NCBI GenBank assembly: GCA_019694575.1
Contig: JAIBBR010000054.1
Coordinates: forward strand, 1 to 32,150
Direction of reading: 5' to 3'
Source: Myxococcaceae bacterium
Lineage (GTDB): Bacteria > Myxococcota > Myxococcia > Myxococcales > Myxococcaceae
DNA length: 32,150 bases
Shown piece by piece: positions 4,941-31,730 of the stretch (position 1 is the first letter of the stretch; each line of letters starts with the position of its first letter). Below the pieces are notes generated by a model that was not told the origin of the DNA, searched no databases, and saw only the letters and a list, made by a program, of their open reading frames with translations. A program made the position numbers and the translations under genes.

Positions 4941-6029
4941 GTGAAGCTTGGACTTGTCCTCTCTGACCTGCACCTCGGTACCGGGCACCGCAAAGGTCAG
5001 ATCAACATTTACGACGACTTTCGCGAAGACGAGCGCTTCGAGCAGCTACTCGATCATTTCTCGCAAGGCCCGTGGGCTGACACCGAAGTGCACCTGGTGC
5101 TCAACGGAGATATTTTCGACCTGCTCAAAGTACCGGTGGGCGGCCATTTCCCCGACGAAATTACCGAGCGGCTGGCGATTGAAAAGCTCGACGCCTGCGT
5201 CAAAGGCCACCCTCGCGTGATGCGGGCTTTGACCCGCTTTCTCTCGCAGGCCTCGCACCAGCTCACCTACCAACCCGGCAATCACGACATGGAGTTCTTC
5301 TTCCCCAAAGTGCAGGAATATTTCTGTCACGCACTCACCCAAGAAAGCGCGCACGCCCGGGTGCACTTCATTTCGCACGAGCCGTGCTTCACGCTCGACG
5401 GTGTGCAGTTTCACCACGGGCATCAGTTCGAGGCGATTCACGCGATGGACTTTCAGCGCCTCACCTTGCCGCGCAAACACGGCGAGCCGATTCTCAACTT
5501 GCCTTGGGGCAGCCTGTTCGCGCTGCATGTCGTCAACGAGCTGTGTGGCGAGCGCCCGTACCTCGACAAAGTCATGCCATTTTGGCCTCTCTTCGCCGGC
5601 GGTATGATCTTCGACACCCGCTTCACCTTGAAAATGATGGCCGCCAGCATGTCGGTGCTGGCACAAGGGCGGTTGAACCCCGTGTGGTGGCGCAAACGGC
5701 CCTTCGAAAAAGTGACTCGGTTTTTGCACCAAGAAGTGGGTTTCTCGAAAGGCTTAGAACATTTCGCCGCGCGAATTTTGCGAAACCCCACCCTGCACGC
5801 GGTGTTCATGGGGCATACCCACCAAGAAATGGTGCGCACTTTTCCCGGTGACAAAGTGTTCGTGAATACCGGTACCTGGTTGCCCATGGTGAGCTTGCGG
5901 CTTTCAGCTTTGGGGCAGAACTTGGCGCTGAACTATGGGCAAATTGAATGGCGTGACGACGGGCCACCTCGGTGCTCGCTGATGCGCTGGCATGGGCGCA
6001 GGCCGGTGACTGAAGAGGTCATTTCATGA
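4941..6029 (+). CDS. calcineurin-like metallophosphoesterase
   Basis: A 362-residue cytosolic-looking phosphoesterase with all five metal-binding motifs of the family in order: Ser-Asp-Leu-His at the N-terminus, Asn-Gly-Asp-Ile-Phe-Asp, Gly-Asn-His-Asp, His-His-Gly-His, and Gly-His-Thr-His near the C-terminus. A dinuclear metal centre is therefore expected. The substrate is not evident. The layout has some resemblance to UDP-2,3-diacylglucosamine hydrolase, but the protein is longer, with an inserted segment containing aromatic and hydrophobic stretches (about residues 180-250). The GTG at 4941 is the best start; the frame runs back to a TTG at 4893, which would overlap eno and adds nothing conserved. 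It overlaps the next gene by ATGA. Confidence 0.85.
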   Translation: MKLGLVLSDLHLGTGHRKGQINIYDDFREDERFEQLLDHFSQGPWADTEVHLVLNGDIFDLLKVPVGGHFPDEITERLAIEKLDACVKGHPRVMRALTRFLSQASHQLTYQPGNHDMEFFFPKVQEYFCHALTQESAHARVHFISHEPCFTLDGVQFHHGHQFEAIHAMDFQRLTLPRKHGEPILNLPWGSLFALHVVNELCGERPYLDKVMPFWPLFAGGMIFDTRFTLKMMAASMSVLAQGRLNPVWWRKRPFEKVTRFLHQEVGFSKGLEHFAARILRNPTLHAVFMGHTHQEMVRTFPGDKVFVNTGTWLPMVSLRLSALGQNLALNYGQIEWRDDGPPRCSLMRWHGRRPVTEEVIS

Positions 6030-7192
6030 GTCCCGCTCCGCCGGCGCGGCCACCTCCGCCGAAGCGGCCCCTCGCGCTGGGCAAAAAAAGGCCCGAGGTA
6101 ATGCCGCCCGACAAACCAGCCCTCAATGCCCGTAAGCGGGGCGCGTTGTTGGGCCTGGCAGTGGGTGATGCATTGGGCACCACGATGGAATGGAAGAAGG
6201 CCTACGCCCCCGATTTTCCCGAGCTGGCGGCCGGGCCCCACGTCGAGATTCGGGGCGGAGGCCCCTTTTCGTTGCGCGTTGGCCAAGTGACCGACGACAC
6301 GCAAATGGCGTGCGCCTTGGCGGCGATGCTCAAAGCGCACAGCCGGTACGATGTCTTGGAAACCGCCAAAGCCTACGCCCGGTGGATGCCCCTGGCCTTC
6401 GACGTCGGCGCACAAACGCGCGCCGCGCTCACCTTGATTAGCGAGGGAGTACACCCCGAGCTCGCCGGCAAACGGGTGTGGCAAGAAGGCAGCCAGCGGC
6501 CCGCCGGCAACGGCTCGTTGATGCGCTGCGCCCCCATCGCGGTGATGTTTTCGACGAACCAAGCCGCGCGCATTGAAGCGTCACTGCTCGATTCGTCGAT
6601 GACACACTTTGATTTTCGGTGCCAGCTCGCCTGCGTGGCCTTCAATGCCGCCATCGCCACTGCGATTGAAAGCGTGGGCGCGCGGGCAGAACCGCAGGCA
6701 TTGGTCAAAGCGGCGGAAGCTGACGTGTCGGTGGCGGCGAGCCAACTGGGCAAGACGTACCCGCATTTCGCGATCAAAGTTCAAGACGCCGCCGCGGGCG
6801 TGCATCAAGACTTGGCGCTGGCGCAGGCGAAAGACCCCCAGCTCTATGGGCCCGAGCTGCATCTGCACCTGCAAATGGGCTTCGTGCGCGTTTCGTTTCG
6901 ACTCGCGTTTTGGCATCTGTTTCACACCCAGAGCTTCGAAGCGGCGTTGATAGACGTGGTGAACCGCGGAGGCGATGCCGACACCAACGGCGCCATCACC
7001 GGAGCCCTGCTCGGCAGCGTGTACGGCGTGCAAGTGATACCCGAGTATTGGGCGACGCGGGTGTTGGAAGCGCGTCCTGAATATGCCTACGAGACAGGCC
7101 CTCTGTGGAAGGACTACCACCCCGCCCGGCTGCTCGAAGACATGGTGCCTGACGACACGCCGAAGGTGCCGCCCAAGTTACTTATTCGGTAA
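6026..7192 (+). CDS. ADP-ribosylglycohydrolase family protein
   Basis: A 388-residue protein of the DraG/ARH fold, which uses magnesium ions to hydrolyse ADP-ribose from proteins or other ADP-ribosylated molecules. The metal-binding segments are Val-Thr-Asp-Asp-Thr-Gln-Met (near residue 95) and Asn-Arg-Gly-Gly-Asp-Ala-Asp-Thr-Asn-Gly near residue 315, plus Ala-Val-Gly-Asp-Ala-Leu-Gly at the start of the fold. The first 35 residues are Pro/Arg/Lys-rich and probably disordered. The start overlaps the phosphoesterase stop by 4 bases, so the two are translationally coupled and may act on linked substrates. The specific target is unknown. Confidence 0.88.
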   Translation: MSPAPPARPPPPKRPLALGKKRPEVMPPDKPALNARKRGALLGLAVGDALGTTMEWKKAYAPDFPELAAGPHVEIRGGGPFSLRVGQVTDDTQMACALAAMLKAHSRYDVLETAKAYARWMPLAFDVGAQTRAALTLISEGVHPELAGKRVWQEGSQRPAGNGSLMRCAPIAVMFSTNQAARIEASLLDSSMTHFDFRCQLACVAFNAAIATAIESVGARAEPQALVKAAEADVSVAASQLGKTYPHFAIKVQDAAAGVHQDLALAQAKDPQLYGPELHLHLQMGFVRVSFRLAFWHLFHTQSFEAALIDVVNRGGDADTNGAITGALLGSVYGVQVIPEYWATRVLEARPEYAYETGPLWKDYHPARLLEDMVPDDTPKVPPKLLIR

Positions 7193-13443: not shown

Positions 13444-16400
13444 CTAATGAAAATCTCGGCTCATCATGTTTGCCTGGTAACCGCGAAAATCGAGCGGCTT
13501 GAGCTTGTCGACAATCAGGTAAATGACGTCACCATTGCGCTCAACCGTGCCTTCACCGAGCAGAAACCCATAACCGGTCGCCAGGTGACGAAGTCGCTCA
13601 AAAACCCGGCCATACAAAAGCCAATTCATGAAGCCGTGTTCGTCTTCGAGGGTAATGAACACCACGCCGCTGGCGGTCTGCGGCCGTTGCCGGCAAATCA
13701 CCATACCCGCGGTTTGAACGCGCGCACGGTGGTGAGCCAGGGCAAACGCTTTCGAGCCCAAGACCCCAGGGGGCAGTTGCTTGCGCACGTGACGCATGGG
13801 GTGGTCTCCAACAGAGAACCCGGTACGAACATAGTCCAACAGGAGCAGCTCATCGTCTGCCAGGCGCGGCAAGTTTACTTTTTGCCCTTGCGGTCCTTCG
13901 CGTTGCCACAAACCATCGACGCGCGGGGCCATGGCCATCCACATGGCTTGGCGGCGTTCGGGGGTGAGCGCTTCGAGGGCTCCGGCTTCAGCGAGAAAGT
14001 GAAGGTCACGGGTGCTCAGCCGTGCCCGTTGCCGCAAATCATTCACCGAGGCAAATGGCGCAAACGCACGCGCCTGCTCGATGCGCCGCCCCACTGACTC
14101 GCCCAAACCCTTGATGCCGCGCAAACCGACGCGCAGGTAAGGCTCGTCGGGTTCCAACGTGCAGTCCCATTGGCTTTTCACCACGCAAATGGGCAACAGC
14201 TGCACCCCGTGGCGCCGTGCGTCTTGGAGCAGCGTGTTGGGCGAGTAAAAACCCATTGGCTGGCTGTTCACCAAAGCCGCGGCAAATGCCGCTGGGTGGT
14301 GCACTTTCAGCCAGGCACTGGCGTAAACGAGGTGCGCAAAGCTCGCGGCGTGACTTTCGGGAAAGCCATAGTCAGCAAAACCTTTCATCTGCTCATACAG
14401 TTGCTCTGCGAACTGGGCAGAAATGCCGTGCGCCGAGAAACCCTGCAGCAACCGTTCGCGGTGCCGCTCGAGGTTGCCGGTGCGCTTCCACGCCGCCATG
14501 TCGCGGCGCAACTGGTCGGCTTCGCTCCCCGTATAGCCAGCGCCGTCGATGGCAATCTGCATCACCTGCTCTTGAAAAATGGGAATACCCAAGGTGCGAT
14601 TGAGAATGTGCTCGAGCAGAGCATGCGGCGCGTTCACGGCGGCGTGGGGGTCTTTTCGTTTTTCTTCTCGCCGGCGCAAGTAGGGGTGCACCATGCCGCC
14701 TTGAATCGGCCCAGGACGAACCAGTGCTACTTCCACCACCAAGTCGTAAAAATGGTCGGGCCGTAACCTGGGCAACATCGACATTTGAGCGCGGCTTTCG
14801 ACCTGAAAAACACCTACCGTGTCGGCACGGCACAATGCCTCGTAGACAGCGGGGTCTTCGGGCGGAACCTTGGCCAGCTGCTCAATCGCGGTATCGGCAC
14901 GAATGCGCTCGTCGCTTTGGGCCAAAGCCAAAGTGCGGCGCAAGGCGGTGAGCATGCCCAAGCCGAGCACGTCGACTTTGAAAAAGCCCAGGGTTTCTAA
15001 ATCGTCTTTGTCCCAGGTGATGATGCTTCGGTTGGGCATCGAAGCGGGCTCAATCGGAGCGACTGTCGAGAGGGACGTCGCGCTGAGTACGAAGCCACCC
15101 ACGTGAGTCGACAGGTGCCGGGGGTAGCCTTGAATCGCCTCAGCGATCTGCAGCGCCAGACGAATTCGGTGATCGCGGCCGTCGACACCCATCAAGCGCA
15201 GGCGCTGCTCGTCGAGCACCTCTAAGTTTTCTCGCCAAGAAAGCGTGGCGCTCAGCCGTTCTAAGTCATCGCGAGAGATACCGAACGCATGGCCCACGTC
15301 GCGCACCGCCGAGCGTGGCCGGTAACAATTGACTTCGCACACCATTGCCGCACGGTCGCGCCCGTAGCGTTGATAAATGTCTTGAATCACTTCTTCACGG
15401 CGTTCGTGCTCGAAGTCGACATCAATGTCGGGCGGTTCGCTGCGGTTCGAAGAGAGAAACCGTTCGAAAAGCAGCGATGAATGGGCTGGGTCTAGCGCGG
15501 TGATACCAAGGCAATAACAGACTGCGCTGTTGGCGGCGCTCCCCCGCCCCTGACAAAGAATGTCGCGCTCACGGGCGAGTTCGACGACTTCTTGAACGCT
15601 CAAAAAAAATGGAGCCACGGCCCGCTGTTCAATCAGCCACAGCTCTTTGGTCAGTTGATCACGCACGCTGGGGGGAACTCCGCGGGGGTAGCGGCGGTGC
15701 GCACCTTGTTCGACGAGGCGTCTCAACATACCCATGGGCGTTTCTGCGCGGGCTGCGAGCTCGCAGGGAAAATGAAATTGCAACTTGCGCAGTGAAAATC
15801 GGCAGGCATCAGCAATTTCTCTGGTACGCAATAACCACTCAGGTTGATGGGCGAACAGCCGCTGCATTTCTTGGGGCGGCTTCAAGTGCGCCTCAGCGTT
15901 GACCGACAGTTTCCGGCCGGCGCGCACCAGCGGGTAGCCTTCGCGAATGCAGTGGAGCACATCGTAAATCGGCTTGTGTTCAGCCACGGCATATTTCACG
16001 GCGTTGGTGGCGCAGACGGGCACGCCGTAGTCATCGTGAGCACGCAGCGCGCGTCGCTCTCGCGCGGGGTCCTCGCCATCGGTGTGGCGAATGACTCTGA
16101 TTGAAAGCCGGTCGCGAAAGGCTTCTCTCAAATTATCCCAAGCGCGGTCGGCTCCCCAACGTTCGACGGCGGCGGGGTCGACCGAAGCCCACAGACCTTC
16201 GCTGTACTGGCACAAGGTGTCGAGCGGCAGACCCGCGTGGCAGTTGCGAGGCAAAGCTGAGCAGACGCGGCGGGGTTCGCTTTGGGGGTAGCGGGCATGG
16301 CTGTCGGTCAATAAGCGGCAGAGGTTGGAATAGCCCAGCTCGTTTTCCACATGAATCAGCACCGTGGCGGGCTCGACAGAGTGATCATCAATGGTCACTT

Positions 16401-16602
16401 CACAACCGATGATCAGCCGAACGCCGCGGCGCTCACTTTCCTCCATTGCCCGAACCATTCCGTAAAGGCTGTCACGATCAGTGATGGCGAGCGCGTCGTA
16501 GCCAAGCGCTTCGGCAGTTTTCATCAGGGCTTTGGGAGTGGAGCCGCCCATCAAAAGCGAGAAGCACGACTGAACCTCGAGCTCGATGTAATCGGTGCTC
16601 AT
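13444..16602 (-). CDS. dnaE2: error-prone DNA polymerase III alpha subunit DnaE2
   Basis: A 1052-residue C-family polymerase, the catalytic member of the ImuA-ImuB-DnaE2 translesion machine responsible for damage-induced mutagenesis. An N-terminal PHP domain (1-210) is degenerate: where replicative DnaE has His-x-His-Ser it reads Glu-Val-Gln-Ser. The polymerase carries the catalytic Pro-Asp-Ile-Asp-Val-Asp-Phe near residue 392 and Lys-Val-Asp-Val-Leu-Gly. A helix-hairpin region, an OB domain (Gly-Val-Val-Phe-Ile-Thr-Leu-Glu-Asp-Glu) and the terminal Ser-Arg-Asp-Phe-His, close to the usual DnaE2 ending, complete it. The ATG at 16602 overlaps the imuB stop as ATGA; a 40-residue longer frame through imuB is rejected. 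Confidence 0.96.
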   Translation of the reverse strand: MSTDYIELEVQSCFSLLMGGSTPKALMKTAEALGYDALAITDRDSLYGMVRAMEESERRGVRLIIGCEVTIDDHSVEPATVLIHVENELGYSNLCRLLTDSHARYPQSEPRRVCSALPRNCHAGLPLDTLCQYSEGLWASVDPAAVERWGADRAWDNLREAFRDRLSIRVIRHTDGEDPARERRALRAHDDYGVPVCATNAVKYAVAEHKPIYDVLHCIREGYPLVRAGRKLSVNAEAHLKPPQEMQRLFAHQPEWLLRTREIADACRFSLRKLQFHFPCELAARAETPMGMLRRLVEQGAHRRYPRGVPPSVRDQLTKELWLIEQRAVAPFFLSVQEVVELARERDILCQGRGSAANSAVCYCLGITALDPAHSSLLFERFLSSNRSEPPDIDVDFEHERREEVIQDIYQRYGRDRAAMVCEVNCYRPRSAVRDVGHAFGISRDDLERLSATLSWRENLEVLDEQRLRLMGVDGRDHRIRLALQIAEAIQGYPRHLSTHVGGFVLSATSLSTVAPIEPASMPNRSIITWDKDDLETLGFFKVDVLGLGMLTALRRTLALAQSDERIRADTAIEQLAKVPPEDPAVYEALCRADTVGVFQVESRAQMSMLPRLRPDHFYDLVVEVALVRPGPIQGGMVHPYLRRREEKRKDPHAAVNAPHALLEHILNRTLGIPIFQEQVMQIAIDGAGYTGSEADQLRRDMAAWKRTGNLERHRERLLQGFSAHGISAQFAEQLYEQMKGFADYGFPESHAASFAHLVYASAWLKVHHPAAFAAALVNSQPMGFYSPNTLLQDARRHGVQLLPICVVKSQWDCTLEPDEPYLRVGLRGIKGLGESVGRRIEQARAFAPFASVNDLRQRARLSTRDLHFLAEAGALEALTPERRQAMWMAMAPRVDGLWQREGPQGQKVNLPRLADDELLLLDYVRTGFSVGDHPMRHVRKQLPPGVLGSKAFALAHHRARVQTAGMVICRQRPQTASGVVFITLEDEHGFMNWLLYGRVFERLRHLATGYGFLLGEGTVERNGDVIYLIVDKLKPLDFRGYQANMMSRDFH

Positions 16603-18113
16603 ACGTCGACCCAGCCACGAATCCAGCACTGGCCGTTGCCTTCCTCGACCCAGGCCGAGGCTTGGGCCCAAAAGACCCACACCAGGCGCCACTGGCGAAA
16701 TCGGTCGGGCGTTTTCCACCACTCCACCGAATGCGAACGAAGCAGCACAGGCTCATGGGTCATCGGCCCTTCGTATGGAATGGGCGTTTTTAGCCAACGC
16801 ACAGGCTCGGGCACAGGCAAGGGTTTGCCAACCGAGCGCGGCGAGCGAAAGCCTTCTGCAGACCAAGGCACCAGGCGGGTTCGTTCTTCTGGGTTCCAAG
16901 TGTCGACAATCTCTAAGGTGCCCACATTTTCGCGCCCCAGGGCCGCAGCGCACTCTGCCCACCATTGGGGCAGAAGCCTTTCGGCACGTGATTCGCGTAG
17001 AAACAAATCGAGGGTATGTCTCGAGACAGGCGCGGCTTCAACCACAGCCAGGGTAAACCCCACGGCAGGCGCAACCAAGTTCAACTGTTCAATGCTGGTG
17101 CGAACGACCGAGAACAACGCGTCGAAGCGATACGCCGGAGCAGAAAAAGACAGCCACCAAACATGTTTGGGGTTCTCGCGAGCCAGCGACCGGTGCAGCG
17201 ATAACTCAGCCCTCAACCGGGTGACGCCCAAAGCTCGGGCCGACAAGCGCGTCGACAATGACTGCACCATGCGTTGAGCAGCGAAGAGCAGCGCTTCGGT
17301 GTGAATGATTTCATCATCGAAATCGAGCCTCTCTTCGGGCCAGGTGACGGGCCGGTACGGCTCGAAAACGCCGTCGTCTTTCCCTTCGAGAAGCGGCAAC
17401 AAGGGCCACTCATCAGGCTGCAGGCGATCGCGCAAGTCTTGTATCGGCAGGGTTTGGAGCTGTTTAATTTTCGAAACGCCGAAATTGTTCAGTCTCTCTT
17501 GGGTTTCGTCAGAGAGGCCCCAAGCCAGAATCGACAGTTGACCAAAGGCGGCCGCCGCTTGCCCCTGTGGAACAATGTGAACCCATTGCTTCTCTGGGCC
17601 GTACATCGCTGCCGCGGCTGCGAGACGAGGGCCATCGGCGACGGCCATGCGCATGTGGTGTCGCAACGGAGCGAGCAATTGACTCAACCGTTTAAGAAAA
17701 GTGCTCTCGCCTGTCGGGTCTTCTTCACTTCGGTAGAGGTGGGAGCAGTCACCGATTTCGACCCACATGATGGACCTAGCGGCCTCGAAGCCCACGCAAG
17801 GGGCCAACGCCAAGGCTTGATCAGCGATTCGAGTCAGCTCAAGACGCAACCGGGCCTCGGGAAACTTAACGATGTCGAGCCTGCGCAATTTGGCACGCGC
17901 CGACGTCAACGTATGCCCCGGCATGATGTTCAGCGCACGTGCACCGCTCGAGGCGGCATTAATTCGAGCGTAACGGCCGGGCACTTTGCAATGAAGGTTC
18001 TCTGTCTGAAGAAACACGACCCAGGGGCGATCGAACCCGTTCGTTCTGATTTTGAGCGTCTTGATGAGCTCGACGAGTAAATCTGGGAAAAACAGCGCCA
18101 ATACGCGCCTCAC
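16599..18113 (-). CDS. imuB: ImuB, catalytically inactive Y-family polymerase homologue
   Basis: A 504-residue Y-family-like protein that links ImuA, the sliding clamp and DnaE2 in the mutasome. The N-terminus Leu-Ala-Leu-Phe-Phe-Pro-Asp lacks the acidic pair of active Y-family enzymes, and the position of their Ser-x-Asp-Glu reads Trp-Val-Glu-Ile-Gly-Asp-Cys, both as expected for ImuB. A helix-hairpin-helix-like part (about 205-240) and a long C-terminal tail rich in Trp and Pro follow. The start is a GTG whose last bases overlap the imuA stop (GTGA); the end overlaps dnaE2. Expression therefore depends on the imuA promoter. Confidence 0.92.
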   Translation of the reverse strand: MRRVLALFFPDLLVELIKTLKIRTNGFDRPWVVFLQTENLHCKVPGRYARINAASSGARALNIMPGHTLTSARAKLRRLDIVKFPEARLRLELTRIADQALALAPCVGFEAARSIMWVEIGDCSHLYRSEEDPTGESTFLKRLSQLLAPLRHHMRMAVADGPRLAAAAAMYGPEKQWVHIVPQGQAAAAFGQLSILAWGLSDETQERLNNFGVSKIKQLQTLPIQDLRDRLQPDEWPLLPLLEGKDDGVFEPYRPVTWPEERLDFDDEIIHTEALLFAAQRMVQSLSTRLSARALGVTRLRAELSLHRSLARENPKHVWWLSFSAPAYRFDALFSVVRTSIEQLNLVAPAVGFTLAVVEAAPVSRHTLDLFLRESRAERLLPQWWAECAAALGRENVGTLEIVDTWNPEERTRLVPWSAEGFRSPRSVGKPLPVPEPVRWLKTPIPYEGPMTHEPVLLRSHSVEWWKTPDRFRQWRLVWVFWAQASAWVEEGNGQCWIRGWVDV

Positions 18114-18814
18114 GGAAAGTCGCCTCGCTTCCAGCGTGTATGGCCGGAAACGAGCTTGATGCGTCGCGGGGGCGACACCGTTCCACGGCGCGACTTGGTG
18201 ACTTCGACCACGAAAGCATCAGGTTCGAACTGCTCGCACTTGAGTTTTTGATCGACAGGCCATGCGCTCGTCTGCTCCTGCGCAGCGTCTGTTAGGAGCA
18301 CCACACGGGTTCGGGTTTTCTCACTGGCCAACGCCAGGCGCTTTAGCCAATGAGCGTCGAGGAGTTGATCAGGGGTGAATGCTGCCTGCAGATTGAGCGC
18401 TGACTGCGCATCGACCACAAGCCCATCGAATAACCCTCGAGCGGTGGTTCGAAGCACCCACTTGGCAAGGAGATCGTCTGGAGACTGCACGACAATGAAC
18501 CGCCGCAAATCCACACCAATTTGGGCTGCTCCCGGGGCGTGAAGCATCTCATCTGTGGAAAACCAAACACACCATGCATCAGATTGAGCCCGGTGGATTG
18601 CTGCCGTTAAGCGCAGAGCCAACTGGGTGACGCCGCCTCGCCCAAAGGCCCCGGAAAACTCAGAGACCCCCTGAAAAAAGCCACAGTCAGCTGCGAGCCC
18701 TTCAAGTCCAGGCCAATTTAAAGAACACCAATCAGTGCTCTCAGGAGCGGGTTTAACGCTCACCTGCTCTTCATCAATCTTAGACTTACGAACCTTTATC
18801 GACACAATCGCCAT
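18110..18814 (-). CDS. imuA: ImuA, RecA-like mutasome subunit
   Basis: A 234-residue protein with a RecA-like core. Ser-Glu-Phe-Ser-Gly-Ala-Phe-Gly-Arg-Gly-Gly takes the place of a P-loop but has no Gly-Lys-Thr/Ser, so ATP binding by the usual route is doubtful. It is followed by the ImuA-typical Val-Trp-Phe-Ser-Thr-Asp-Glu and Ile-Gly-Val-Asp-Leu-Arg-Arg-Phe-Ile-Val-Val. ImuA assists ImuB and DnaE2 in translesion synthesis. The ATG at 18814 is two bases from the SOS box, and the -10 within that box would put the transcript start at or next to this ATG, suggesting leaderless translation. The open frame continues to a TTG at 18871, but that runs through the operator. A GTG at 18763 is another possible start. 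Confidence 0.82.
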   Translation of the reverse strand: MAIVSIKVRKSKIDEEQVSVKPAPESTDWCSLNWPGLEGLAADCGFFQGVSEFSGAFGRGGVTQLALRLTAAIHRAQSDAWCVWFSTDEMLHAPGAAQIGVDLRRFIVVQSPDDLLAKWVLRTTARGLFDGLVVDAQSALNLQAAFTPDQLLDAHWLKRLALASEKTRTRVVLLTDAAQEQTSAWPVDQKLKCEQFEPDAFVVEVTKSRRGTVSPPRRIKLVSGHTRWKRGDFP

Positions 18815-18816
18815 TA

Positions 18817-18832
18817 CTGAACAAATTATCAG
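18817..18832 (-). promoter_or_regulatory. SOS-type box with embedded -10, imuA-imuB-dnaE2 promoter
   Basis: On the minus strand CTGATAATTTGTTCAG has the same CTGATA-N4-GTTCAG design as both recN boxes. GATAAT inside it differs from the consensus -10 at one base. A repressor here would cover the -10 element and the start codon region of the whole mutasome operon. Confidence 0.75.
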
Positions 18833-18874
18833 CACCCAGAGAAGATTTCCACGGAGGACTGTTCGGCGCAAAGA

Positions 18875-23841: not shown

Positions 23842-24537
23842 CTACAACAGCTTCGAAAACAACGCGCGCAACCCAACCGACATTAAGTCGGTACCTCGCC
23901 CGAAACCGTGAGTGTCGCGTTCAAGCTCGCGATAGAAGCGGGCGACCGAAAGTTGGTCTATCACCAGACGGGCCGACACAGTCGGGTCGACACGCTGCCG
24001 TTTGTCTTCTTTCTCGGCCAGTTCGCGCAAAGTGCCTTCGAGTTGCTCGCCACCCAAAAAACAAATTGGCGCTTGGCAGTGCTGACAGTTCGACGTTTCA
24101 GACAACGGCACCGGAGCCCCGCAGCTGCTGCACTGCACCGTCTTCACTTTCGCCTTTAATGCTTCGAGCTCGGCCGCAGACGCCTGCCGCACAAACCCCT
24201 TCTCGCGCAGAAACTGAAAAAACGTGATGAAGCGGCCGTGCGCGTCACAGCGAAAATAGCTGAACGCGGTGGTGTGGCGCTTGTCGAAGGTTTCTTTGAG
24301 CACCCCGTTGCAGCGCGGGCATGCCTTCACTGCGTGGTGAGGCTGACGGGCTGACTCACGGCGTTCGTACATCGAGTGAAAAAGCTTCACCGTGGCGCCC
24401 GGCGTAAGCGCCAAACTTTCGCGCCCGTCAAACCACAGGCTGTTGCAGTGGTGGCACACGTCGATCTCGACGCGCGGCAGGTAGTGACCGTCGTAGACCT
24501 CGCTTTGGGCCTCGTGTCCGCACCCGGGACAATTCAT
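23842..24537 (-). CDS. zinc-ribbon protein with three zinc-binding modules
   Basis: A 231-residue protein. The first module is a TFIIB-type zinc ribbon: Cys-Pro-Gly-Cys near the N-terminus with Cys-His-His-Cys-Asn-Ser-Leu-Trp-Phe-Asp-Gly. The second has Cys-Pro-Arg-Cys at about 74 with Cys-Asp-Ala-His about 22 residues later. The third is Cys-Ser-Ser-Cys and Cys-Gln-His-Cys (about 137-156). The rest is helical with many charged residues. Such proteins bind nucleic acid or protein, but no partner is evident. The ATG has AGGGAG 7 bases upstream. It follows the SDR gene after 15 bp, so it is co-transcribed with elbD and the SDR. Confidence 0.85.
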   Translation of the reverse strand: MNCPGCGHEAQSEVYDGHYLPRVEIDVCHHCNSLWFDGRESLALTPGATVKLFHSMYERRESARQPHHAVKACPRCNGVLKETFDKRHTTAFSYFRCDAHGRFITFFQFLREKGFVRQASAAELEALKAKVKTVQCSSCGAPVPLSETSNCQHCQAPICFLGGEQLEGTLRELAEKEDKRQRVDPTVSARLVIDQLSVARFYRELERDTHGFGRGTDLMSVGLRALFSKLL

Positions 24538-24552
24538 CGACGCACTCCCTCT

Positions 24553-25581
24553 TCAGCGCTTGGCGAGCTCGGCCAAACGGCCTTTGGTACCCGGTAACGG
24601 GCCCGGCCCGCGCTTGGCAAAGACGTACTGCACGGTGTCTGAAAGCGTCTCGTAAACATCGCGCGGCTTGAAGTGTAGCTCACGCTCGGCCTTCGACGCA
24701 TCGAGCCAAAACCAGTGCTCGCCAATCTCGACTTCTTGCGGGTCTAACGTCGAGTCCACCCCACGCGCCCGGTTGAGACGAGTAAGCACCGCAGCCCCGA
24801 AAATGTTCACCGGCTTCGGCAACTTGAGCTTCGGAGCAGGCACTCCGGTCAACCGTTCCAGACGTGAGAAAAACTCTGACATTGACAGGTTCACACCCAT
24901 CAAGTGGCGCCCATACAGCTCGCCTTGGGTAAGCGCATTGACGGCGGCATCGGCCACGTCGCGCACGTCAGCGATTGAAATGCCTCCGCCCGGCATGGCG
25001 GGAATGTCACGTTGCAGAAATTTCACCACGGTCCACGTCGATGAGAGCCGGTCGTCGCCGGGCCCCATCAACAGGCTGGGGTTCAACACCACCAGGGGTA
25101 TTTGGTGATCGCGGCAGAACTGCAGCGCCAACTTCTCTTCGTAAATTTTCGACAAGTAGTACGGCCAACGGCCCACCACTTCGATGGGGTAGTCGTTGGC
25201 TTCTGACCGCGTGGCTTCGCTCGCTGACACCGCGATGGTGCCCGACGTCGATGCGAGCACGATGCGCGGCTTGGTACCCAGCTCACGCACGTCGCGCAGC
25301 AATTCACGTGTGCAATCGACATGCAGCTCATACATTTTGCGGCCGTCTTCATGGCGAAAGCTGACCAAACCAGCGAGGTGAAAAATACCTTCGACGCCCA
25401 GCAACGCCCGACGCACCAATGCGCGGTCTTTCAAATCACCCTGCAGCCATTCAACCTTGTGCGCCCATTCTGCCGCAGGCGCCGAGCGCGACAGTAACCG
25501 CACCTGATGCCCAGCGACCAACAGCCGTGGCACCAAATGCGCGCCTAAGAACCCCGTGCCTCCCGTGACGAGCAACTTCAT
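24553..25581 (-). CDS. extended SDR, dihydroflavonol-reductase-like NAD(P)-dependent oxidoreductase
   Basis: A 342-residue extended short-chain dehydrogenase. The nucleotide-binding Thr-Gly-Gly-Thr-Gly-Phe-Leu-Gly is at residues 6-13, an Ala-Gly-Leu-Val follows near 70, and the catalytic Tyr-x3-Lys is Tyr-Tyr-Leu-Ser-Lys near 145. The family includes 3-beta-hydroxysteroid dehydrogenases, dihydroflavonol reductases and NAD-dependent epimerases. The ATG overlaps the elbD stop by 4 bases, so the two proteins are made together. A reduction step on a fatty-acid- or glycerolipid-derived substrate is a reasonable inference, not shown. Confidence 0.9.
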   Translation of the reverse strand: MKLLVTGGTGFLGAHLVPRLLVAGHQVRLLSRSAPAAEWAHKVEWLQGDLKDRALVRRALLGVEGIFHLAGLVSFRHEDGRKMYELHVDCTRELLRDVRELGTKPRIVLASTSGTIAVSASEATRSEANDYPIEVVGRWPYYLSKIYEEKLALQFCRDHQIPLVVLNPSLLMGPGDDRLSSTWTVVKFLQRDIPAMPGGGISIADVRDVADAAVNALTQGELYGRHLMGVNLSMSEFFSRLERLTGVPAPKLKLPKPVNIFGAAVLTRLNRARGVDSTLDPQEVEIGEHWFWLDASKAERELHFKPRDVYETLSDTVQYVFAKRGPGPLPGTKGRLAELAKR

Positions 25582-28500
25582 GCGTCGCCCCGCTTTTTCT
25601 CGCGCGGCGCTTCGTCGGGCACCACCAACCCTGAAGGAGAATAAACCCGCCCGTCGCGCAACGAGCGAATCGCCTCTTCAGCAATGCGCGTGGCATGGCG
25701 GTAGCTGTCAGAACGCGACATTGATTCAGTACGGGCTTTCATCATGCCGACCGGTAACACCGGGCCAATGCGCACCTCGAGCTTCTTGCCCTTCGGCCAA
25801 TAGCCTCCCTTGGGCAGCACCTCATGTGCCCCCTCGATGTAGAGGGGCAAAATGTCGACGTTGTGGGTAAGCGCGAGAAAGCCGAGCGTGGGGTAAAATT
25901 CTTGCAGCGTGCCGTCAGGCGAGCGGCCACCTTCGGGAAAAATAAGCAGGTTGTAGCCCTGATTCAACGCTTCACCCGCCAACCGCAGCGATTCACGCAG
26001 TGAGCCTTGGCGGTCCATCGGAATTAAATTGGTGAAGTTCTCGAAGTACACACGCTTCATCGGCGTGTTGAAGAAATAATCGCGCGCGGCAATTGAGACC
26101 AACCGTTCGCCCTGCTCTCCCAGCACCACTTTGATCAGCCCCATGTCCAAGTGGCTGGTGTGGTTGGCGATCACCATGAAGTTGCGATTGTGGGGAATGA
26201 AGCTCTTACCGCTGGTCTTCACATCGAAGACGCCGCCGTAGAGCGCTTTCTGGCCAGCCTCTAACAGCCCGCGGCCCAACTTGACGAGCGGCTCGGGAAT
26301 TTCGAGCTCTAGCGCTTCGCTGTCTTTGCGCTTCTGCTCTTTGGAAATTTCTTTCGCCTTCGCGTCGAGCGCGGGGCGGCGACCCGAAGCAACTATCAGT
26401 TTGCGCAAATCGTCAACCGTCTGCACTTGCGAGAGGTCATTCACCGCGTGCACGGGCACCGAGGCTTGCTCGAGCGCACTGGCAAGCTCAGTCAGCATCA
26501 ACGAATCAAAACCCAAGTCACCTGTCAGCCGCGCCTCTGGCGTCACCTCGGCCAAGGGCTTGCCCACCACTTCGGCAATGACCGGGTACAGCCACTCGCC
26601 CACGCCGCCTTGTGCAGGCGCAGGTGACACCAGCTGCTTCTGGGCTTTCTCGGCTGACGCGGCGACACGTTCTAACCGTTTCAGCTCGTCGACCACCCAC
26701 TTGCGCTTCACCTTGCGCGTTGACGTGCGAAGCAGCTCACCGTCCCACAGGCGCAAAATCTTCACGCGACGATAAAAAGGCATCTCTTGCGAAACGTTGC
26801 GAAAATGCTCTTCGAGCTCGCGCCGCACTTCGTCGCGCGGCCGGTCTAAATAGTCGGGCACGCACAAGCAGGCCACCTTCTCGCCGCCCGCTTCATCAGG
26901 TAGGCCGACGATAGAGAGCTCTTTGATGTGCTTGTGAACCTGGTACAGCTCTTCGAGCTCATCGGGGAAAACGTTCTTCCCGTTGGCGTCGATGATCACG
27001 TCTTTCTTCCGGCCCACCAAATACAAGCGGCCGTCGGCGTCGATGCGACCCAAGTCACCGGTGTAGAGCCAACCGTTCTTCAAAATCGCATCGGTGGCGT
27101 CGCGGTCTTCGAAATAACCCGCCATCACGTTCGGGCCTTTCGCAATCACCTCGCCAATACCACTCGCGTCAGGCTCGAGAATCTTCAGCTCCACGCCCGG
27201 CAGCGCGCGGCCCACGGTACCTGGCAGCCGCTTGTTGCCGGGGCTGGTGACCGTCAACACCGGCGACGACTCGGTCAGCCCGTAGCCTTCGCTCAAATCG
27301 AAACCCAGCGCATGAAACGCCTTGTGCACTTCATCGGGCAACGCCGAACCGCCCGACACCAAGTAACGAATATTGCCGCCGAACTTTCGGTGCACCGGCC
27401 AGAAGAGCAACTTGCCAAGGTTGAAATCGGCCTTGTCGCGCAGCGCGGCGTTGGCGTCCATCAGGGTTTTCACCGCTTCTTCAACGAACTTGGGCTTGGC
27501 AGCCAGCTCTTGCGTCAACTTGCGGTGAAGCAGTTGCCACAACGCCGGCACGCCGATCATGCCGTTGACGCGGCCGGTCTCGAGCACTTCGCCCAACCGG
27601 TCAGACGTGAGCTCGTCGATGTAGCTGATTTCGCAACCCTGACTAAATGGGGTCAAAAAGCCTGCCGAGAACTCGAACGTGTGGTGCAGCGGGAGCACTG
27701 ACAGAACTCCGTCGCCTTCGCTCATCTCGAAGACGCCGGCCAATTTGGCAATCAACGACGTGAAGTTGCGGTGCGTGAGCATCACGCCTTTGGGGTTACC
27801 CGTCGTGCCCGAAGTGAAAATCAGCGACGCCACGTCGTCAGCCGACGCCGAGCGTTTCACTGGGCCCAAACCGTCAGGCTGACTCTCGTCACCTGCCATC
27901 GCCTGTGCCAACGAATGCACCTGAGTCGCCACGCCGGCCTCAGCGAGCAACCGGTGCAAGTTGGGCAAATCGTGCGCGGCTTGCTCTGAAATCAGACACA
28001 CGGTGGCTTTGGCGCGCTTCGCCACATTCACCACTTCGGCTTCAGTCAACTCGGGGTCGACCGGCACCGCGGTGGCACCGGCGCGCAAAATGCCAAAGAA
28101 TGCCATGCCCCATTCGGGCCGGTTTTCAGAGATGAGCAGCACCCGGTCTTGTGGCTTCACTCCCGCACGGAGCAAAAATGACCCCACGCGCCCCGCGTAA
28201 CGGTGCACTTCGCCGAAGGTGAAGCGTGTCTCTTGGTCGCCTTCGATCATGCGAAACGCCACCCGGTGTCGCCAGGCGTGCACGCTGGCGTCGAAGAGCT
28301 CGAGCAGGTCGCGGTACGCCGAAATCGCTTTGCGCTTTTCGGTCTCTTCTTCGAGGCCGGGAAACACCCACTTTTCCAACCCCGGCATGTGCACTTCGAG
28401 AAAGTACGTGCGCCAGTCGAAGCCTTCAGGGTCCCACGGAATTTTCGCCCAGTCGTGCGGCGCCAAGTGAGCGCACACTTCCCGGGTGTTGTCGCAGCGA

Positions 28501-30014
28501 AATAAAAACCGGTTGTCCCAAATGAACGGTAAAAACAGGTCGGCGATCATCTTCATCGCGGTGGCCTGATCTTCCATGCCCTCGAGCTTGCGCTGGGCCT
28601 TGGTCATCAGCGCCGACACTTTGGGAGCGCCCCACGTCGGCTTCCACTCTTCGAGCGCGCCCTGCAACCATTGGCTGCCTTTTAAAAACAACGGCGCCGA
28701 CCGCGCTTCGAACGCGTTCTTCGAGATCGCCTCGGGCTCGACCTTCGACAGCAGTTGGTTAAAGAGCCTGCTGCCAGTCTTTTTACGCCGGTAATAACGT
28801 CGGCGGTAAAGACCGGTCAGCTCCACCGAGCGGCTGGCGATGAAGGGGTTCGAATCGCCCGACGCCAATTGAAACACACGCCGCTCAGGCATGTTTTGCT
28901 GCTGGGCAGAAATCAACTGCGCGGCAATCGAGATGCACGCACCCGCCACCAAGTCGACGGGAATCATGTCTAAAATCGCTTTGTCGCCCGCGGGAATGCC
29001 CCGTTGGCCCCGCATGATGGCAAAGCACAACGGCGCCGACGTGGTGAAACCTTCATTCCACCCGGGAAAAGGAAAGCGCAGCGCGCTCTCGACGACCGAG
29101 GGGCGCACAATGGCGTAGCGCAACTTGGGCGTGGCGGCGATCACCTGCTCGCCGAGCGACTTGGTGTACGTGTACGTGTTGGGCCAGCCCCAGTGCTTGG
29201 CGCGCTCCATGCCGGCTTCGGTGAGGCGCGTGGTGAGCCACAACTTGCGTTCGCGGCCGATCGCCAAACGCAGCGTTTTCTCGTCTTGCCAGTCGCGGCC
29301 TTCGTCTTTGAGCCGCACCAATGCTTTTTCGCGGAACATCGACGCCAGCGCCTTGTCGTCGGCCTGTTCGCGTAACCGGGCGACAATCTTCTCGCCGTCG
29401 GCCAGCTCTTGCTCGAGCGAAAAATCGCGCCCGTCGATCTCGTGCTTCTTGGGGAAATACCCCACCACTTCTTCGTCTTCGAAAATCAGCCCGCTGCGGT
29501 TGCCCGCCACGAAGGTGGTGCTCATGTGCAAAAGCGGTATGTCGAGCGCCAAGCACATGTCGACGACATGCCGCACGCCGTACGTGTTGACGTTCAGCCC
29601 GACCTCGAGCGACGGGTTGAACGACACCAGGCCCGCGCAGTTGATCACCAAGTCGAGCTGGCCTTTGAGGCCCATCACGTAAGCGCCTTCGAGGCCCATC
29701 CACGGGTCGGTGATGTCGCCGTTCAACACCACGCACTTCTGTTTCAAGAACCCGAGCGCCCCGGCTTGGCCTCGCGCATCACGCAGCGGTTGAAACGGCT
29801 CGCTGGTGGCAATTTTATCGAAGAAACGCGCCTGCGAGCTGGGCGAACTGCCCTTGCGCACCAGCACGTAAACCTTGTCGAGCACTTCACCGTAGTGGTG
29901 CAGCAACATCGACAAGGTGACTTTGCCGACGAAACCGGTCGCGCCGGCGAACAAAATTCGCTTGCCGGTCAACGTGCGGGTGACGTCTAAGGGAGGCTTC
30001 ACGGACGCTGACAT
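25578..30014 (-). CDS. elbD: ElbD-like multifunctional ether-lipid synthase (FAR-AMP ligase-ACP-PlsC)
   Basis: A 1478-residue four-part enzyme (numbers count from the GTG at 30038). First, a fatty-acyl reductase: Gly-Ala-Thr-Gly-Phe-Val-Gly at about 32-38, Tyr-Thr-Tyr-Thr-Lys near 290. Second, an AMP-forming acyl ligase with Thr-Ser-Gly-Thr-Thr-Gly-Asn-Pro-Lys-Gly near 740. Third, an acyl-carrier domain with Gly-Phe-Asp-Ser-Leu near 1176, the Ser being the phosphopantetheine site. Fourth, a PlsC acyltransferase with Asn-His-Thr-Ser-His-Leu-Asp near 1290 and Phe-Pro-Glu-Gly-Gly-Arg-Ser near 1365. This is the domain order of ElbD, required for ether lipids in Myxococcus and Stigmatella. It presumably activates a fatty acid, reduces it to aldehyde or alcohol and transfers an acyl group to a glycerol backbone. 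The ATG at 30014 is preferred. Confidence 0.9.
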   Translation of the reverse strand: MSASVKPPLDVTRTLTGKRILFAGATGFVGKVTLSMLLHHYGEVLDKVYVLVRKGSSPSSQARFFDKIATSEPFQPLRDARGQAGALGFLKQKCVVLNGDITDPWMGLEGAYVMGLKGQLDLVINCAGLVSFNPSLEVGLNVNTYGVRHVVDMCLALDIPLLHMSTTFVAGNRSGLIFEDEEVVGYFPKKHEIDGRDFSLEQELADGEKIVARLREQADDKALASMFREKALVRLKDEGRDWQDEKTLRLAIGRERKLWLTTRLTEAGMERAKHWGWPNTYTYTKSLGEQVIAATPKLRYAIVRPSVVESALRFPFPGWNEGFTTSAPLCFAIMRGQRGIPAGDKAILDMIPVDLVAGACISIAAQLISAQQQNMPERRVFQLASGDSNPFIASRSVELTGLYRRRYYRRKKTGSRLFNQLLSKVEPEAISKNAFEARSAPLFLKGSQWLQGALEEWKPTWGAPKVSALMTKAQRKLEGMEDQATAMKMIADLFLPFIWDNRFLFRCDNTREVCAHLAPHDWAKIPWDPEGFDWRTYFLEVHMPGLEKWVFPGLEEETEKRKAISAYRDLLELFDASVHAWRHRVAFRMIEGDQETRFTFGEVHRYAGRVGSFLLRAGVKPQDRVLLISENRPEWGMAFFGILRAGATAVPVDPELTEAEVVNVAKRAKATVCLISEQAAHDLPNLHRLLAEAGVATQVHSLAQAMAGDESQPDGLGPVKRSASADDVASLIFTSGTTGNPKGVMLTHRNFTSLIAKLAGVFEMSEGDGVLSVLPLHHTFEFSAGFLTPFSQGCEISYIDELTSDRLGEVLETGRVNGMIGVPALWQLLHRKLTQELAAKPKFVEEAVKTLMDANAALRDKADFNLGKLLFWPVHRKFGGNIRYLVSGGSALPDEVHKAFHALGFDLSEGYGLTESSPVLTVTSPGNKRLPGTVGRALPGVELKILEPDASGIGEVIAKGPNVMAGYFEDRDATDAILKNGWLYTGDLGRIDADGRLYLVGRKKDVIIDANGKNVFPDELEELYQVHKHIKELSIVGLPDEAGGEKVACLCVPDYLDRPRDEVRRELEEHFRNVSQEMPFYRRVKILRLWDGELLRTSTRKVKRKWVVDELKRLERVAASAEKAQKQLVSPAPAQGGVGEWLYPVIAEVVGKPLAEVTPEARLTGDLGFDSLMLTELASALEQASVPVHAVNDLSQVQTVDDLRKLIVASGRRPALDAKAKEISKEQKRKDSEALELEIPEPLVKLGRGLLEAGQKALYGGVFDVKTSGKSFIPHNRNFMVIANHTSHLDMGLIKVVLGEQGERLVSIAARDYFFNTPMKRVYFENFTNLIPMDRQGSLRESLRLAGEALNQGYNLLIFPEGGRSPDGTLQEFYPTLGFLALTHNVDILPLYIEGAHEVLPKGGYWPKGKKLEVRIGPVLPVGMMKARTESMSRSDSYRHATRIAEEAIRSLRDGRVYSPSGLVVPDEAPREKKRGDA

Positions 30015-30080
30015 GAACGCCTGGGTGCATACTGTCACGGGGCTGCGAAATCCATCGCGATTCTGCTATGGAACCTGGCA

Positions 30081-31730
30081 ATGAGAGGGCCCCTCGCGCA
30101 TGCGCCGCGCAGGCTGTTTTTCGGGGTCTGGCTGGCCTTGAGCTCGCTTGTTTTTCCCGCTTCGGCGCAGGAGCAGCTACCCGCCGATCTCGAGCTCGCG
30201 CTGCGCGCCTTGCAAGACAATGAGCGCGAACGGCTAACCCGCCAAATCGGCTCGGTAGAAGAGCTGCCCTTTTACCGCGCCGAATTGAAAGTCGACCTCG
30301 CCGAGAAGATCGTTACCGGCACGCTGCGCATTCGCTATGCCGTTCGCTTGCGGTCTGTGCACGGGCTGTGGCTCTACGTGCAGGCCAACGCGGCGGACGG
30401 CACGCATGTGGAGCTTTCGCAAGCAGTGCGCGACAACAAAGCCGCCATCGTCGAACAGCCCTCGCCCACGCTTTACCGCGTCACGCTCAACCCACCCGTG
30501 GCGGCAACACAATCGGTCGACGTCGAGCTACAACTGCGCGCGCCACTGCCCGATGCCGAAGGTGGACCGTACGGCTATTCTGAGCAGCTCATCTCGCTGG
30601 CAGGTTTGCTCCCAGTGGTGTGCACCGACACCGAGCAGAGCGAGCTCGTCGACGAGAGCAACGGCGTAGGTGAAGGCTTGCCTCGGCGTGTGGGCAATTG
30701 GCTGATTAGCGTGCAAGTGCCCGCGGGGTGGAAAGCGTTCGGCCCACAAGAAACGGTGGGCGAAGTGCCGGCCGCCGACAGCGGCACCCGCTACGTGTTC
30801 ACCGGCGCCGCGGCACGCGATTTTCCCCTTGTGCTCACCCGCGGCTACCAAACCCTCACCATGCAAGTCGGCAATGTGACCCTCGAGAGCCACTTCTTAC
30901 CCGCCGACGCGCGCGCTGGAGGCGAAGTGCTCAGGCATGCAGCAGCGGCCTTGGCAGAATTTGAAAAGCGACTTGGCCCGTTGCCGTGGCGCCGGCTCAA
31001 AGTGGTGTCGATGCCGCTCAACAATGGCCACCAAGGTTTCGGTTTCTCGGGTTTGATGCCTCTGCCGCGCTCTCTCTACACCGGGCCGGTAGACCCGCTG
31101 GTGGCGTTGGGAGTGAGTGACGTGTCGATTCCTCCGCTGCTGCGCGAAGAGTGGAGCGACATTGGCCCCGCCAGCCGCTACACCTTGGCCTTCGCGGCCG
31201 CGCACCAAGTGGCACATCAATATTTCGGAGCCTTGGTTGGCAACGACGTATACGAAACCCCGGTGGTCGACGAAGCGCTGGCCCAAGCCATGGCGCTGCG
31301 CTTTCTAGAATGGAAGCACGGCCGTAAACACGCCGAGGCGATGAAGAAGGCGCAGTGGGTGCGCATCTATCAACTGTTTCGCTGGGGCGGAGGCAACGAC
31401 GACGCCGCGAACCGGCCCTCGTCGCAATTCGATTCATCGCTCGAATACACCGCGCTCACTTTCGGTAAAGCACCTTTTTTGTACGACGAAGCCCGAAAGC
31501 GCATGGGCGATGGAGCGCTGGGCCGCGCGCTCAAACGTTACGTCGACGACTACGCGCACCTCCAAGCTTCGGCTGATACGCTGCTGCAAATGCTCTCGGC
31601 TGAAGCGCCCGCGCAAGCCCAAGCGCTGGAGCAACTGCAGACACGCTTCTGGAACCAAGCCCACGGCGACGAAGACTTAGACCCTGCGAAAATGAACCCC
31701 CCCGCTCCCTCTTCCACGCAGCGGAAATAA
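30081..31730 (+). CDS. exported M1-peptidase-like protein, probable pseudoenzyme
   Basis: A 549-residue protein with a signal peptide (basic start, Leu-Phe-Phe-Gly-Val-Trp-Leu-Ala-Leu, cleavage near Ala-Ser-Ala-Gln). The N-terminal half is beta-rich, as in M1 aminopeptidases; the C-terminal half has a gluzincin-like site: His375-Gln-Val-Ala-His379 followed by Glu398. Spacing HxxxH-18-E is that of M1 enzymes, but the catalytic Glu is Gln376. The substrate-binding Gly-x-Met-Glu-Asn motif reads Gly-Phe-Ser-Gly-Leu-Met-Pro. All three zinc ligands remain, so it may bind zinc without cleaving peptides. It is divergent from elbD and only 66 bp away. A role as binding or scaffold protein in the cell envelope is a guess. 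Confidence 0.82.
   Translation: MRGPLAHAPRRLFFGVWLALSSLVFPASAQEQLPADLELALRALQDNERERLTRQIGSVEELPFYRAELKVDLAEKIVTGTLRIRYAVRLRSVHGLWLYVQANAADGTHVELSQAVRDNKAAIVEQPSPTLYRVTLNPPVAATQSVDVELQLRAPLPDAEGGPYGYSEQLISLAGLLPVVCTDTEQSELVDESNGVGEGLPRRVGNWLISVQVPAGWKAFGPQETVGEVPAADSGTRYVFTGAAARDFPLVLTRGYQTLTMQVGNVTLESHFLPADARAGGEVLRHAAAALAEFEKRLGPLPWRRLKVVSMPLNNGHQGFGFSGLMPLPRSLYTGPVDPLVALGVSDVSIPPLLREEWSDIGPASRYTLAFAAAHQVAHQYFGALVGNDVYETPVVDEALAQAMALRFLEWKHGRKHAEAMKKAQWVRIYQLFRWGGGNDDAANRPSSQFDSSLEYTALTFGKAPFLYDEARKRMGDGALGRALKRYVDDYAHLQASADTLLQMLSAEAPAQAQALEQLQTRFWNQAHGDEDLDPAKMNPPAPSSTQRK

Follow-up and report, generated by a model that had tools for sequence, protein, structure and literature searches.

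The stretch of DNA analysed here (the window; 32,150 nucleotides from a Myxococcaceae bacterium) carries on its minus strand a long gene followed by an epimerase gene. Sequence comparison gives good support for the long gene being an orthologue of elbD, in a bacterium whose family also includes Myxococcus. The genes and domains at the locus are as follows.

25578-30038, minus strand: elbD orthologue, 1486 aa from a GTG start, with an alternative ATG start at 30014
28938-29945, minus strand: fatty acyl-CoA reductase domain NAD_binding_4 (residues 32-367; Pfam E 3.5e-45), motifs GATGFVGK and YTYTK
28362-28580, minus strand: weak Sterile/FAR_C C-terminal domain (residues 487-559; E 1.5e-4, under the Pfam cut-off)
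27111-28292, minus strand: AMP-binding acyl ligase domain (residues 583-976; Pfam E 4.9e-83)
26721-26960, minus strand: AMP-binding C-terminal subdomain (residues 1027-1106; Pfam E 3.4e-4, just under the cut-off)
26406-26594, minus strand: acyl carrier PP-binding domain (residues 1149-1211; Pfam E 1.5e-8), phosphopantetheine serine in GDLGFDSL
25836-26222, minus strand: PlsC-type acyltransferase domain (residues 1273-1401; Pfam E 2.5e-20), motifs NHTSHLD and FPEGGRS
24553-25581, minus strand: elbE orthologue, NAD-dependent epimerase/dehydratase family, 71% identity to ElbE of M. xanthus (L064)
30081-31730, upstream of elbD: divergent M1-peptidase-like gene (PF01433 E 2.3e-7)

The elbD frame is free of internal stops. 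The GTG codon at 30038 is its longest start, and position 30014, the upper limit of the gene in the initial annotation, is an ATG at residue 9. Alignments of ElbD to its relatives start at about residues 8-17, and no clear ribosome-binding site was found before either codon; the two starts are equally possible. Scans for promoters and terminators gave no signal exceeding that of shuffled sequences.

A Pfam domain search recovered the reductase, AMP ligase, carrier protein and PlsC acyltransferase on one chain in the order of ElbD. The motifs of all four parts had been described as intact, and their conservation in 57 homologues bears this out. The reductase glycines (GxTGFxGK) and YxxxK are kept in all or nearly all of the homologues. 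Little or no variation was seen in the ligase A3-A10 core with its A10 lysine or in the PlsC motifs NHxxHLD and FPEG, and 56 of the 57 have the carrier serine. The A10 region starts at about residue 1104, and its lysine is invariant. The reductase domain also matches the fatty acyl-CoA reductase of PDB 7eoz (E 3.2e-40), and the third segment of that alignment falls on the same place as the weak Sterile/FAR_C domain. An intact four-domain ElbD frame with these motifs is far beyond chance. A pseudogene or a chance ORF was rejected on the stop-free frame and the motif conservation.

The window protein is 68% identical, over 98% of its length, to ElbD of M. xanthus AM003 (L064), whose genome (G193; same coordinates as G106 in the phylum sample) is placed in the family of the window itself (f1). 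The closest named relatives are Myxococcota with 65-74% identity, including Myxococcus, Archangium, Pyxidicoccus, Hyalangium and many MAGs of Myxococcaceae or Archangiaceae. In a tree of reductase domains, the protein was found within the ElbDs, beside other ElbDs of Myxococcota, and not with stand-alone reductases or wax-ester enzymes. The ElbA/ElbE-type epimerases and an SDR encoded on another contig (G000:C159) fell outside ElbD, and MXAN_1675 was on a very long branch of unsure placement. The SDR, considered as a second reductase, was rejected; it is a NAD_binding_4 protein of 365 aa in which the other domains are absent. A stand-alone acyl reductase or wax-ester enzyme was rejected for the window protein on the reductase tree, the Pfam domains and the comparison with 7eoz. 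The ElbD-like four-domain protein proposed in the initial annotation was confirmed, and the identity to M. xanthus ElbD and the adjoining elbE make the stronger case for an ElbD orthologue.

Neighbourhood and arrangement of the elb genes

The elbE gene lies directly downstream of elbD, with 4 bases shared between the elbD stop and the elbE start; ElbD and ElbE are probably translated together. In M. xanthus (L064), the gene order is epimerase elbA, HAD elbB (5649-6356), elbC, elbD and epimerase elbE, which corresponds to the published order and annotations (PMC9131029). Unlike in the M. xanthus operon, elbB and elbC are not directly upstream of elbD in the window. They form with elbA a separate intact block on another contig (G000:C90; L098), in which the relative of the HAD gene is also intact. 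The products of this block are 57% (ElbA), 71% (ElbB) and 78% (ElbC) identical to those of M. xanthus.

A divergent relative of the M1-peptidase-like gene was likewise found upstream of elbD at 11 other loci (L011, L017, L046, L049, L050, L053, L054, L058, L060, L062 and L069), and in all 11 elbC is absent from the side of elbD. Therefore, the split between elbD and elbC is a feature of the lineage. The genes elbB, elbC and elbD are contiguous in more distant Myxococcota and in a MAG labelled Proteobacteria (L065, L071 and L066), with ElbDs of 38-50% identity. This linkage in distant relatives suggests that the separation of elbD from elbB-elbC is a derived state. Since both linked and unlinked arrangements have been reported among elbD loci (PMC9131029), adjacency to elbB-elbC is not a defining feature of ElbD. 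A complete Myxococcus-like elbA-E operon was also seen in a record titled Comamonas sp. KCTC 72670 (L073; BNCN01000002.1), with an ElbC 99% identical to that of M. xanthus; this record is probably a mislabelled myxobacterial genome.

The window contains several other genes. A small cysteine-rich, zinc-ribbon-like protein is encoded on the minus strand 15 bases downstream of elbE (23842-24537), and the other loci compared showed no such gene close to elbD. On the same strand, positions 13444-18871 carry a gene for an error-prone DnaE2-type DNA polymerase (1092 aa; NCBIfam 1248 bits) with an overlapping frame of 504 aa (weak similarity to DNA polymerase IV) and an ImuA-like frame (31 bits, under the cut-off). 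This region looks like an SOS mutagenesis cassette. The plus strand encodes a B12-binding-type radical SAM protein related to TIGR03960 (21328-23049; 198 bits, cut-off 462 bits) and an ADP-ribosylglycohydrolase (6026-7192; PF03747 E 4.7e-60) adjoining a calcineurin-like phosphoesterase frame.

Ether-lipid genes in the genome and the family

ElbD was found in 94 of the 95 sampled genomes of the family and is therefore neither rare nor surprising there; the rarity that the initial annotation had attributed to this route did not hold in this family. Taken alone, the window gene adds a further ElbD to the family in which this enzyme was discovered. Of the 95 genomes, 86 have CarF and 17 have AGPS; these counts are of genomes and not of independent events. 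AGPS was absent from 69 of the 86 genomes carrying both ElbD and CarF, and no AGPS-positive genome among the 95 was without ElbD. The 69 genomes fit an ether bond that is formed independently of AGPS, and the joint occurrence of these genes is consistent with ElbD as the main source of the CarF substrate. Such family members, with ElbD and CarF and without AGPS, among them the genome of the window, provide natural backgrounds for the question of ether-bond formation by ElbD, free of an AGPS backup of the M. xanthus type.

The genome of the window encodes a CarF-type desaturase (G000:C203; PF10520 E 7.5e-61), which is 59% identical to M. xanthus CarF and scores under the NCBIfam equivalog cut-off (386 vs 500 bits). 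Since the genome has both the elbA-elbB-elbC block and this desaturase, plasmalogens are predicted for the organism. Searches of this genome, which is 98.9% complete and assembled in 220 contigs, detected no AGPS of the MXAN_1676 type (the strongest hit within the genome was 34% identical over 182 residues, E 1.5e-19), no full-length homologue of MXAN_1675 and no match to the HGD-D domain (PF06050). The latter, which is linked to the anaerobic plasmalogen synthase route PlsA/Ger, was the sole domain tried for that route. AGPS orthologues were found in 20 of 193 genomes, where they are 49-100% identical along almost the whole protein. Because the assembly consists of so many contigs, an AGPS gene could sit in a gap. 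With no AGPS detectable, the Elb route is expected to be the only source of the ether bond here. Elsewhere in the phylum, one genome (G005) showed a strong PF10520 match (5.9e-61) without a full-length ElbD or a listed AGPS match in the same sample, that is, a desaturase without an obvious source of ether lipids.

Proposed pathway and alternative explanations

In a 2022 review (PMC9131029), M. xanthus is described as having ElbD and AGPS routes and as relying mainly on ElbD. Most alkyl and vinyl ether lipids are missing from its elbD mutants, ether lipids are reduced in elbE mutants, and CarF makes the vinyl ether. The review also reports that the ligase and carrier activities of M. xanthus ElbD were shown in vitro and that neither reductase nor acyltransferase activity was detected. 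The term single-protein route used in the initial annotation is thus an overstatement, as the ligase and carrier activities are the only ones shown, and ElbE and CarF are likewise required or implicated.

By extension from M. xanthus ElbD, the ligase domain would activate a fatty acid, probably iso-branched, and load it onto the built-in carrier domain. Reduction of the acyl thioester to an aldehyde or alcohol would fall to the reductase domain, and the PlsC domain may act on the glycerol-phosphate side. ElbE, and possibly other Elb proteins, would help to form the alkyl ether, which CarF, encoded elsewhere in the genome, would desaturate to plasmalogen as M. xanthus CarF does. We give a probability of about 0.9 to this overall explanation, namely a putative Elb-route ElbD orthologue, an ether bond formed without AGPS, and CarF leading to plasmalogen. 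In Pontiella, ElbD homologues are present and ether lipids were not detected (PMC11868695). Therefore, the presence of ElbD is not proof of its function.

An enzyme of the fatty-alcohol or wax-ester type would release a free alcohol or aldehyde from its reductase and form an ordinary acyl ester with its PlsC domain, without any ether product. The relationship of the reductase domain to the solved 7eoz would fit such an enzyme, and in vitro formation of the ether bond by ElbD is not on record (PMC9131029). However, the window protein is a full-length orthologue of M. xanthus ElbD, without which most ether lipids disappear, it lies inside ElbD in the reductase tree, and it adjoins ElbE and co-occurs with CarF, all of which make this explanation very improbable. 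It is somewhat less probable still that the gene is an elbD orthologue whose role changed or was lost in this lineage after it left the elbB-elbC cluster. The position of elbD-elbE, apart from elbA-elbB-elbC and, as in several relatives, beside the divergent M1-peptidase-like gene, could be read in this way, but the catalytic motifs are kept, the elbA-elbB-elbC block is intact elsewhere in the genome, CarF is kept, and linked and unlinked arrangements were both on record before (PMC9131029).

We regard as the least probable of these explanations a phospholipid-repair acyl-ACP synthetase/acyltransferase of the Aas type, composed of PlsC and ligase, to which a reductase has merely been added. 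The ligase region is indeed matched by PRK08633 (213 bits) and PRK06814 (167 bits), but these scores are far under the respective cut-offs of 1221 and 1349 bits, the best stretches lie within the ligase part, the domains come in a different order and the protein has a carrier domain of its own.

A further lead concerns ElbC, which the 2022 review (PMC9131029) called a protein of "unknown function". ElbC, encoded at L098:6135-7748 (G000:C90) in the window's genome and at L064:6370-7980 in M. xanthus, belongs to the LarA superfamily, the nickel-pincer nucleotide type (matches at E 8e-37 and 6e-33; PMC12611868). Across 38 ElbC rows, three positions do not vary: those aligned with the cofactor (nickel-pincer attachment) lysine, with the histidine that binds nickel and with the first catalytic histidine. 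The position of the second catalytic histidine is an apparently invariant valine, with a gap nearby in the reference alignment. Desguin et al. found a Frankia LarAH14 inactive on the substrates tried, noted non-conserved residues in group 16, and proposed that proteins without the second histidine may catalyse a different hydride-mediated reaction (PMC7583248). LarC is encoded in the genome (C25) and in nearly all family members; because it is widespread in the phylum, its presence is weak support for this reading of ElbC.

These features suggest, as a lead and not as a result, that ElbC may perform a hydride-transfer step in the pathway. That Elb proteins alone form the ether bond independently of AGPS, with ElbC as a nickel-pincer-nucleotide hydride-transfer enzyme, is a tentative and on balance unlikely proposal. 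A literature search found no paper linking ElbC or ether lipids to the LarA superfamily, and we know of no role of the nickel-pincer organometallic cofactor in lipid synthesis so far; if true, this would be the first known to us. The identification of ElbC as a LarA-type protein provides a testable hypothesis on this pathway.

Comparison with known systems

The reductase of PDB 7eoz is homologous to the reductase domain of the window ElbD, and the homology extends to the C-terminal part. Unlike ElbD, 7eoz is a stand-alone chain of 532 aa without ligase, carrier or acyltransferase. MXAN_1675, which adjoins AGPS in M. xanthus, resembles ElbD in having FAR and acyltransferase domains on one chain and differs from it by the absence of ligase and carrier. 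The ElbD-like NRPS-like clusters of sponge symbionts (PMC9426513), compared by description, belong to Acidobacteriota and Poribacteria. The M. xanthus system differs from that of the window's genome in that elbA-elbB-elbC are here at another locus and that an AGPS or MXAN_1675 operon was not found in this genome. M. xanthus ElbD itself (Lorenzen et al. 2014, as described in PMC9131029; sequence from AM003) has the same four domains in the same order as the window ElbD, and its locus likewise has elbE directly downstream, in the same bacterial family.
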